From Candidatus Saccharimonadota bacterium (GTDB lineage: Bacteria > Patescibacteriota > Saccharimonadia > Saccharimonadales > UBA4665), in the NCBI GenBank assembly GCA_029288485.1, contig JARIHC010000006.1, positions 124,001 through 188,000 on the forward strand: DNA of 64,000 nt. Reading direction: 5' to 3'. Made by a program: the position numbers and the translations under genes. The notes beneath the pieces are model-generated. The model worked only from the letters and a program-made list of their open reading frames with translations, was not told where the DNA came from and ran no database searches. Shown here in pieces: positions 37,163 through 39,256 of the stretch (position 1 is the stretch's first letter; each line of letters opens with the position of its first letter).

Positions 37163-37627
37163 ATGAACGATAAGCAAACAAAAACGGTCCGGCCAACCAA
37201 AAAACAAAAAGAACTGCTAACATTTATCGAACAATTTATAGCTGAACATGGCTATAGTCCGAGCTACCGCGAGATAATGAGCGGCCTGAGCTACACTTCT
37301 GTTGCTACTGTATCGCTGCACGTCAACAACTTGATTAAGCGTGGCCACTTGCTCAAGCGCGATCATTCAGCCCGTTCGCTGGAATTAGCGGACTCTACTG
37401 ATCGTAAAAAAATTACTTCAAACGAAGTCGCACCAGCCGAGGAGAAATGGCTTGTAGAAAAGGTGGAGCATGCCTTCCAGCAAGCTGAGCAAGCCGGTGG
37501 GGAGATAGCTCAAGCTAGCCTAGATAACTTATATGTGTTGGTCGGCGCGCTGAAAGTGCTGGGTTTAGAAGGAGCATCCCAAAGTTTTGTGTCGCGCCTA
37601 AGTGTCCTTAAGCAAAAATCGAGGTAA
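37163..37627 (+). CDS. LexA-type winged-helix DNA-binding protein without peptidase domain
   Basis: A 154-residue protein whose residues about 10-75 match the LexA N-terminal DNA-binding domain: PTKKQKELLTFIEQFIAEHG, SPSYREIMSGL, TVSLHVNNLIKRGHL and DHSARSLEL. The C-terminal half is helical and rich in Glu, Gln and Ala. It lacks the Ala-Gly cleavage site and the Ser-Lys S24 peptidase dyad, so it cannot be a self-cleaving SOS repressor. It is more likely a stand-alone regulator with an oligomerisation or partner-binding tail. Its target is unknown. It ends 213 bases before the riboswitch-controlled gene. Confidence 0.8.
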   Translation: MNDKQTKTVRPTKKQKELLTFIEQFIAEHGYSPSYREIMSGLSYTSVATVSLHVNNLIKRGHLLKRDHSARSLELADSTDRKKITSNEVAPAEEKWLVEKVEHAFQQAEQAGGEIAQASLDNLYVLVGALKVLGLEGASQSFVSRLSVLKQKSR

Positions 37628-37659
37628 TAAATACTATATCTAGCGTAGCGCGGGAGTGG

Positions 37660-37665
37660 TACACT
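37660..37665 (+). promoter_or_regulatory. Extended -10 of the riboswitch transcript
   Basis: TGGTACACT places a TG-extended TACACT hexamer at 37660-37665. Transcription would start near 37672, about 18 bases before the first conserved aptamer helix. Confidence 0.45.
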
Positions 37666-37688
37666 ACTAAATGTTAAAAATTAATAAA

Positions 37689-37768
37689 AAGCTGGAATCT
37701 CGTGCAAATCGAGAACTGTGCCGCAACTGTGATTCGCGCCTTAGCGTGATAAGTCAGATACAGCCTAA
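37689..37768 (+). promoter_or_regulatory. Cobalamin-riboswitch-like aptamer (compact class)
   Basis: Conserved cobalamin aptamer blocks occur in the right order. GGAAT is followed by helix P4, TCTCG (37698-37702) pairing with CGAGA (37710-37714) around TGCAAA. Then comes the invariant-looking GCCGCAACTGT (37720-37730). A short CGC/GCG hairpin (37735-37737 with 37744-37746) replaces the long peripheral region. The B12-box-like AAGTCAGATACAGCC lies at 37751-37765. P3 can form between GCTG (37691-37694) and CAGC (37761-37764). The lack of the P8-P10 extension suggests a compact class. The B12 box deviates from the usual AGTCAGGAxACC, so the ligand could be a variant corrinoid. Confidence 0.78.
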
Positions 37769-37808
37769 TTAAGCCTCTCGAGCAAGAGCAAAGTACTAGG
37801 GATTTTGG

Positions 37809-37840
37809 CCCTCGCTCGCATGAGAGCAGAGGGTATTTTT
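37809..37840 (+). terminator. Riboswitch expression-platform hairpin sequestering the SD
   Basis: CCCTCGCTC pairs with GAGAGCAGAGGG (one bulged A), followed by TATTTTT, which looks like an intrinsic terminator. The 3' arm also holds the AGAGGG Shine-Dalgarno sequence, seven bases before the ATG at 37841. The upstream segment 37775-37790 (CTCTCGAGCAAGAGC) can pair with either arm, giving an alternative antiterminator fold. Control could be at transcription, translation or both. Confidence 0.65.
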
Positions 37841-39256
37841 ATGGCCGCAGCAGCCGAAACTGCAATACAAACAGAGCCGTGGATTGAGCAAGAAGAGTAC
37901 GCCCACTCTTTGATGACCATTAAAAGAATGGGAGGCTTGGCCGTAGAGGGCGTGGTCGAGCATGTGCCGGCTCGAGAGCTAGCTTTGGCAGACTTTACCA
38001 CCGCTGTTACCGAAATGTTAAAAACCGACAGCGAATTCAGAGAATGCCTGGATATTGATAACAGGCGCAAGCACTACGTTATCGACGGCAAAGCTTGTGC
38101 GGCCGACGGCACGCCAATGGTGTCTATTCTTGAAACTGGCCGCGAAAGCTCACGTCACCAAGCTCAGGAAAATGAAGCGCTAGAGGCGCAAGTAATACGC
38201 GATTCAGCTGACGTTTTTATTGCTAATAGAGTCGATGCTCTCCTACCTGACAAAACTCTTTTAACTCTCAGCATGGAGCCCAAAAAAGAGCTCAAAAAGT
38301 ACCATAAAGAATATCGTCAGCTTGGGTACAGGGAAGGTTTGGCGTATATCCAAACCTACTCTAAATCGGAAGATGGCCAGGTGGTTGAGTCTGGATCGTA
38401 TTCGGTAGATATGAGTGACGAATCTGTCTGGCGTGAATTATTTGCTGAACTTGGAGTAGCGATACCAGACGGCGAATCATCAAATATCTGGATCAAAAAT
38501 TATGCCGAGCTTGATATGGATGCTCAGCAAGCTGATAAGTTTGCCAAGGCACTTCGTGAGGAGGCTTACAAAAAAGCCGGTATCGAAAAGCAACGCTTTT
38601 CTGCGACCGAATATGTGGTGCGCAACGCTCAAATTGTTGAAGATATTTTCGACACCTACTATCCATATCTTTCTGAAGCTCTCAACACTGGACAGAATAA
38701 TGAAAGATTACAATCCTTAGCATTAGCCACCTTACAAAAAGACCCGCCTAACTTGAAGGCATCAGTCAAGCATCAGCTGACAAAGATTGCTAGCTCGGCA
38801 CACTTTGACAGCGAAGCTGGCAAAATCAAGGATTCCATCATAAGGTACGCTACAGTTGAAGAACTTAGAAAAGGTCTAAAAGTCTTTGTGCGGATAGATA
38901 GAGCAGAGAGGGACCACGTTGATTATGCTAATACTCCAGCTATGTTTATGCCAGCTATGCACCCGGAGGCTATGTCTCAACGGCTGGCTGGTAACGTCGA
39001 ATGCGGCGTTCGGGCTGGACGTTCGTATGGCGGTTGCGCCGGACAAATAGAACTTAATCTGAATCCGGAAGAAGAATCTAATAATCCGCAAGAGGCTTAC
39101 GGCGGCAAGGACTGTCCTGAAATAAAAGATGGTCAACGTGTAAGGTGTCCACATTGCCGAAAAGAAGTTAGAGCTATTGTTCCAGACAAAGAAAGTATTT
39201 ACTGCAGCAACAAAGAATGCAAACTGGCTGCGCCTGACTTAGCACATAAAGATTAA
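37841..39256 (+). CDS. Unknown protein with C-terminal zinc ribbon, under riboswitch-like leader
   Basis: A 471-residue protein I do not recognise. It is mostly charged and helical, without signal peptide or membrane segments. It has EPKKELKKYHKEYRQLGYRE near residue 150 and IRYATVEELRKGLKVFVR near 340. A Gly/Cys-containing stretch lies at ECGVRAGRSYGGCAG. The C-terminus has a zinc-ribbon-like RCPHCRKEVRAIV followed by YCSNKEC. The start at ATG 37841 is favoured by AGAGGG seven bases upstream; an in-frame ATG at 37820 lies inside the hairpin. A link to corrinoid uptake, salvage or B12-replacing metabolism is suggested only by the leader. Confidence 0.75.
   Translation: MAAAAETAIQTEPWIEQEEYAHSLMTIKRMGGLAVEGVVEHVPARELALADFTTAVTEMLKTDSEFRECLDIDNRRKHYVIDGKACAADGTPMVSILETGRESSRHQAQENEALEAQVIRDSADVFIANRVDALLPDKTLLTLSMEPKKELKKYHKEYRQLGYREGLAYIQTYSKSEDGQVVESGSYSVDMSDESVWRELFAELGVAIPDGESSNIWIKNYAELDMDAQQADKFAKALREEAYKKAGIEKQRFSATEYVVRNAQIVEDIFDTYYPYLSEALNTGQNNERLQSLALATLQKDPPNLKASVKHQLTKIASSAHFDSEAGKIKDSIIRYATVEELRKGLKVFVRIDRAERDHVDYANTPAMFMPAMHPEAMSQRLAGNVECGVRAGRSYGGCAGQIELNLNPEEESNNPQEAYGGKDCPEIKDGQRVRCPHCRKEVRAIVPDKESIYCSNKECKLAAPDLAHKD

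Follow-up and report, generated by a model that had tools for sequence, protein, structure and literature searches.

The leader of P0001, a gene for a protein of 471 amino acids (37841–39256, + strand), raises the question of whether a member of the Saccharibacteria senses corrinoids through its RNA and, if so, what such sensing would serve. The gene lies in the window, by which we mean the whole 64,000-nucleotide stretch of DNA analysed here. Saccharibacteria live on other bacteria, from which most of their metabolites must come; to our knowledge, few details have been established of which compounds they take and by what means. A search of the open-access literature found no report of cobalamin riboswitches from either Saccharibacteria or Patescibacteria.

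Scanning of the 64-kb window with covariance models (cmscan, Rfam 15) identifies a single riboswitch, a match to RF00174 at 37659–37779 that scores 33.7 bits against the curated cut-off, or gathering score, of 31.5 bits. Its E-value is 7.8e-5 across 64 kb and 8.5e-7 across 701 bases, and it is the sole such riboswitch in the 912 kb genome, which is 97% complete. This significant match bears out the preliminary description, in which a cobalamin aptamer had been proposed from the letters alone. The blocks named there are all present in the expected order, with GGAA(T) at 37694–37698, the P4 strands TCTCG and CGAGA at 37698–37702 and 37710–37714, GCCGCAACTGT at 37720–37730 and the B12-box-like AAGTCAGATACAGCC at 37751–37765. 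When the whole leader is folded thermodynamically the aptamer is not the minimum, and stability is no better than that of shuffles (z -0.8). A score barely above the cut-off is what a chance match, or a decayed aptamer without function, might give, but such an origin is highly improbable in view of the covariation, the fixed promoter geometry and the presence of the switch in 29 of 29 leaders that were approached from the gene; the comparative data, that is covariation together with gene linkage, rule out the chance match.

The covariation was measured on 63 distinct leaders, across which the 29 base pairs of the structure are paired in 97% of cells. Double changes fill 333 cells as opposed to 105 after shuffling, and the covariation score is 0.433, compared with 0.139 for shuffled leaders and no more than 0.133 for slid structures. 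All four helices of the P3–P6 four-way junction contain double changes. P6 co-varies such that ACUG occurs with CAG, ACGG with CCG and ACCG with CGG, and the pair R38–Y89 (alignment numbering) is A–U in 36 sequences and G–C in 27, with no exceptions. Since the RF00174 match is above its cut-off and covariation among the 63 related leaders is strong, the window leader is, judged by its sequence and those of its relatives, a genuine cobalamin-class riboswitch, and we are highly confident that it is a corrinoid riboswitch. An RNA model built for the clade gives the window leader 102.5 bits, although the window belongs to the training set of that model.

The aptamer core (37691–37764, + strand), placed by alignment to RF00174, comprises P3 (37691–37694/37761–37764), J3/4 (GAA), P4, P5 (37717–37718/37724–37725), P6 (37727–37729/37755–37757) and J6/3 (ATA, 37758–37760), together with the long-range pairs A37715–T37754 and C37716–G37753. 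The invariant L5 loop, TGCCG (37719–37723), is predicted to be half of a kissing loop and complements L13 (CGAGCA, 37779–37784) with one bulged A. L13 closes the P13 stem CTCT/AGAG (37775–37788), and two of the four P13 pairs show double changes among the relatives. L5 and L13 are complementary in 63 of 63 rows, the L13 motif having been one basis for choosing the rows, and because the loops are invariant it is this complementarity, rather than covariation, that argues for the kissing interaction. The class I P7–P12 arm is replaced by a P7-like hairpin (37731–37750) of variable length in which double changes keep the pairs; in most leaders this site is taken up by one short hairpin, between 0 and about 25 nt long, and no P8–P12 extension was found, so that the compact form without a peripheral arm, as first described, is correct. 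Long insertions in the P7 hairpin of L089, L115, L123 and L125 share a motif (AAAAAGAGCAGCCGGA...GATGAGAAAAAC) and are possibly an inserted element. P1 and P2 were likewise not found, as bases outside P3 pair near the shuffled level when the leaders are compared. The window aptamer is hence a P3–P6 junction with a P13, and the core of the clade can be written NNCU GGAA-P4-RCUG UGCCG CAACNGU-(hairpin)-AGYCNGAYACRGC, then CUCYCGAGCARGAG.

Class I aptamers have a P8–P12 extension, whilst class IIb is marked by GGAA at J3/4 and UCU at J6/3 (PMC11260477). The window switch resembles the AdoCbl-binding class I of RF00174 in its P3–P6 core, GGAA, CCGCAACNGU, an AGYC B12 box and a P13 with predicted L5–L13 kissing, but it is without P1/P2 and the P8–P12 arm and measures 121 nt against the 189 positions of the model. 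At J6/3 it reads AYA(C), where class I has GAGAC and class IIb UCU; the UCU motif is absent from the window switch (AUA), AUCU is found in the leaders of six relatives, and J6/3 is A-N-A-C in 100 classified leaders (93 of the P0001 family and seven of DUF4430). The canonical B12 box, AGCCAGGAGACC, is also absent, the window having AGTCAGATACAGC. This altered box, to which the preliminary description had drawn attention, is real and clade-wide, some 100 of the 122 leaders carrying AGYCNGANAC, and is therefore not a product of decay. With GGAA present as in class IIb, the P8–P12 arm absent and A-N-A(C) at J6/3, the switch fits best within the cobalamin class as a class II-like variant that has neither P1 nor P2. 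The class IIa switch env8HyCbl has a P2 and other junction sequences, unlike the window switch. It is similar in being compact and, on the predictions for the window switch, in being translational and having a bulged kissing loop (for the bulge, see PMC10653944). Class IIb and the ppe2 switch share with the window switch the missing P8–P12 arm and GGAA at J3/4, and ppe2 is also without UCU at J6/3; ppe2, however, has a P1 and an anti-anti-SD in a P6/P7 extension, whereas in the window P1/P2 are absent and the anti-sequester strand would be that of L13/P13 (PMC11260477).

We infer that the ligand is probably adenosylcobalamin. A cobalamin-class fold could instead bind a corrinoid in some other form, or a molecule of another kind, with AYAC at J6/3 marking a switched or broadened specificity. 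The uniformity of A-N-A-C, the consistency of which suggests function, and the few relatives that retain AUCU with the UCU motif of class IIb would agree with such a change, which we nevertheless think unlikely, because AYAC and AUCU leaders both precede DUF4430 and family genes, an arrangement that argues for one ligand class, and because the ppe2 switch of Mycobacterium tuberculosis, with GGAA and without UCU, still binds cobalamins (PMC11260477). By lacking P1/P2 and having an altered J6/3, the switch extends the cobalamin class and is useful for asking which elements determine ligand choice.

The 5' end of the Rfam match, 37659, falls inside a promoter-like extended -10 element (TGGTACACT, 37657–37665, + strand) from which transcription is predicted to start at about 37672; the transcript of the aptamer would hence probably begin just before P3, without P1 or P2. 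The window promoter is some 25 nt upstream of P3, and of 117 leaders 84 have an extended -10 (TGNTANNNT) 5' of P3, usually 17–36 nt away, compared with 11.5 +/- 3.4 after shuffling. The -35 position is covered by a palindrome resembling an NrdR box (ATACTATATCTAGCGT, 37631–37646, + strand) that matches ACACWATATATWGTGT at 13 of 16 positions. Such boxes, with at least 12 of 16 matches, occur in 69 of 116 leaders versus 6.0 in shuffles, and among the 53 leaders that also have an extended -10, 42 have a distance of 13 nt, and eight one of 14 nt, between the end of the box and the start of the -10. An NrdR regulon is recognised by a pair of boxes about 31–32 bp apart and an NrdR in the genome. In the window a second box, over the -10, is weak (10/16) and centred 30 bp from the first, and the genome encodes an NrdR (TIGR00244, 191 bits against 124.65) whose gene adjoins nrdJ; the region upstream of nrdR–nrdJ itself has a best box of 11/16. 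NrdR control of the riboswitch promoter is fairly probable. The leader of Streptomyces nrdABS combines a B12 riboswitch with NrdR control, as would that of the window, but its target is a class I ribonucleotide reductase (RNR), whereas the target in the window is an uncharacterised protein. Elsewhere in the window's genome, tandem NrdR-like boxes 32 bp apart are found upstream of a glutaredoxin and a thioredoxin reductase (C4:35283, L281), and a second, weak NrdR-like protein (C3:26810–27199, L290) scores 48.8 bits, below the cut-off. Directly upstream of the leader is a gene for a protein with a LexA DNA-binding domain (P0002, 154 aa, 37163–37627), and the apparent end of a lexA-like gene in the leaders of many relatives suggests that the order of the lexA-like and riboswitch genes is conserved.

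Downstream of the aptamer, a sequestering hairpin (GCCCTCGCTC/GAGCAGAGGGT, 37808–37834, + strand) is predicted, the 3' arm of which contains the Shine–Dalgarno sequence AGAGGG (37828–37833), 7 nt before the ATG at 37841. The strand 37779–37788 (CGAGCaaGAG) can make eight pairs with 37811–37818, in the 5' arm of this hairpin. Across 82 leaders, pairing of the L13/P13 strand with the leader's own downstream sequence has a mean energy of -13.8 kcal/mol, against -9.4 kcal/mol for shuffled sequence; p is 0.02 for the window and at most 0.05 in 46 of the 82, a count that is descriptive only because the leaders are related. The Priestia megaterium metE riboswitch, which has a class I aptamer, offers a comparison. 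In metE, L5–L13 kissing keeps P13 closed and the downstream hairpin forms, and in the corrinoid-free RNA the hairpin's 5' arm is instead paired to the 3' strand of P13, an antiterminator logic shown by mutation (PMC10653944). The same pairing is predicted for the corrinoid-free window leader, although the hairpin of metE is a transcription terminator and that of the window a Shine–Dalgarno hairpin.

It may be envisaged that a bound corrinoid would stabilise the P3–P6 junction, that L5 (UGCCG) would kiss L13 (CGAGCA) and that P13 would stay closed, whereupon the hairpin GCCCUCGCUC/GAGCAGAGGGU would form and bury the Shine–Dalgarno sequence. With no corrinoid, CGAGCaaGAG would pair with CUCGCUCG of the 5' arm and the Shine–Dalgarno sequence would be freed. 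Enough B12, probably as adenosylcobalamin, would in this way turn off translation of the downstream gene, and the NrdR-like box over the -35 would probably add repression when dNTPs are plentiful. Because the Shine–Dalgarno hairpin and the duplex with the L13/P13 strand are alternatives to each other, translational control by this route is likely, and on the same grounds we infer its OFF sign. The hairpin had initially been given a dual purpose, of which the burial of AGAGGG stands and the role as a terminator is not supported: a scan with a terminator consensus found no terminator-like site, as the T run (TATTTTTA) is short and broken, and the hairpin does not qualify as a canonical terminator. 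That it might all the same act as an intrinsic terminator, with transcriptional OFF control instead of or besides hiding of the Shine–Dalgarno sequence, is suggested by the TATTTTTATG that comes after a GC-rich hairpin, both in the window and in many relatives, but the empty scan, the interrupted T run and a 3' arm that is itself the Shine–Dalgarno sequence in the window and many relatives make this improbable.

A search for the same leader in related genomes, which the preliminary description had called for, returned RF00174 matches in 119 of 199, with 50 above the gathering score, and 122 sites were retrieved and compared. The clade model matches 105 of 380 Patescibacteria sampled across the phylum. 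Named relatives were found with a DNA pattern specific to the clade's leader; the records with specific names are Saccharibacteria or Saccharimonadia, except for one labelled Chlamydiae, and a few are labelled just 'bacterium' or 'Patescibacteria group'. Nineteen sites beyond the first set have DUF4430-like, DUF6580 and several other uncharacterised proteins downstream. In other classes of Patescibacteria, the switch in L207 (G348) and L216 (G291) is followed by an uncharacterised protein of about 840 aa and then a P-loop ATPase-like protein, and the targets in L202 and L208 (G203, G328) and in L203 and L205 (G520, G393) are further uncharacterised proteins of about 230–275 aa.

The proteins encoded 3' of 102 of the 122 sites fall into one single-linkage group, a Saccharimonadia family to which P0001 belongs. 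An alignment of 101 of these proteins shows conservation at 86–97% of E58, R120, S144, C399 and C436/C455/C460, and the cysteine motif near the C-terminus of P0001 resembles a zinc ribbon. Of 198 relatives, 140 have matches to a profile of the family, one or two per genome listed and some of them split. The leaders of homologous genes retain the conserved blocks, as the first reading of the locus required: 20 of 20 loci similar to P0001 matched, with three of the matches weak or truncated, and 29 of 29 further family loci, the highest-scoring having been examined, clearly match the clade RNA model, seven of them in genomes without an RF00174 match. P0001 itself has no Pfam family and no PHROG match, and its weak NCBIfam match to pyruvoyl arginine decarboxylase (E 0.0014, 18.7 against 207 bits) is far under the cut-off. 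No solved relative was found. Two AlphaFold (AF2) models are confident (pLDDT 81 and 87); neither has a significant Foldseek match in the PDB, and the second has no significant viral match. A phage or mobile gene was rejected as an identity for P0001, given its lack of a match in phage records and just two isolated weak PHROG matches for the family. In dozens of genomes, among them those of L163, L149 and L077 and not that of the window, a nadD-like nucleotidyltransferase lies 3' of the riboswitch-controlled gene.

The single RNR of the window's genome is of the B12-dependent class II (NF005122, 1357 bits against 859). A BtuR adenosyltransferase is encoded, and neither a PduO-type adenosyltransferase nor a PF02310 protein was found there. 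An organism that senses corrinoids it does not make would fit class II as the sole RNR. Amongst the relatives, the ten genomes with only a class I-type RNR, told apart by score and length, have neither riboswitch nor family, as against 108 with the riboswitch and 129 with the family in about 168 other genomes; the class I-only genomes sit in two families, so that the association is not phylogenetically independent and is suggestive only. No RNR was detected in 11 riboswitch genomes. B12 binders of the transcobalamin type carry DUF4430 as their C-terminal domain (PMC4350170). A DUF4430 protein is the target in 13 leaders, with DUF6580 next in 12 of the 13, and an RNR large subunit is the target in two or three, including class I nrdA/nrdB in G027 and G065. 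Since both DUF4430 with DUF6580 and class I nrdA/nrdB are targets of the kind expected for B12, they support the corrinoid reading. DUF6580 was not found in the window's genome, which leaves the family gene as the one target of the riboswitch there.

Tentatively, the most likely role of the protein is to acquire or handle B12 so that the class II RNR is supplied, and the best reading of its gene is that it is repressed by B12 and probably also by NrdR. The idea of a new adenosyltransferase is weakened by BtuR, which 15 of the 16 genomes tested already have. B12-independent isozymes are often under the control of cobalamin switches, and the protein might accordingly spare B12 as an RNR accessory or alternative made at B12 shortage. 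The class I nrdA/nrdB under the switch in G027 and G065 and the fit of the NrdR-like box to an nrd regulon would be in keeping with sparing, but the family has no RNR homology and is highly variable, and in four genomes (G012, G028, G044 and G056) its gene stands in an operon of riboswitch, DUF4430, DUF6580 and family gene; the DUF4430–DUF6580 loci carry the same kind of NrdR-like box. These points make sparing rather unlikely.

Taken as a whole, the locus is in our judgement likely to be explained by a minimal corrinoid OFF riboswitch with a probable NrdR layer and a target that may acquire or handle B12 for the class II RNR. It offers a testable B12 circuit in Saccharibacteria in which a conserved RNA sensor and an NrdR-like operator are combined with a B12-dependent RNR and with a target protein that is nearly universal, and the riboswitch serves as a pointer to a Saccharimonadia protein without a known fold. 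A group-wide switch before one kind of protein points to an undescribed route of B12 acquisition or handling. More speculatively still, the family may be an undescribed, fast-evolving system of B12 acquisition or retention with a new fold, and in the window's genome the circuit of riboswitch, NrdR-like box, BtuR and class II RNR, with the protein as a part of it, may link host-cell corrinoid to the DNA synthesis of the episymbiont.
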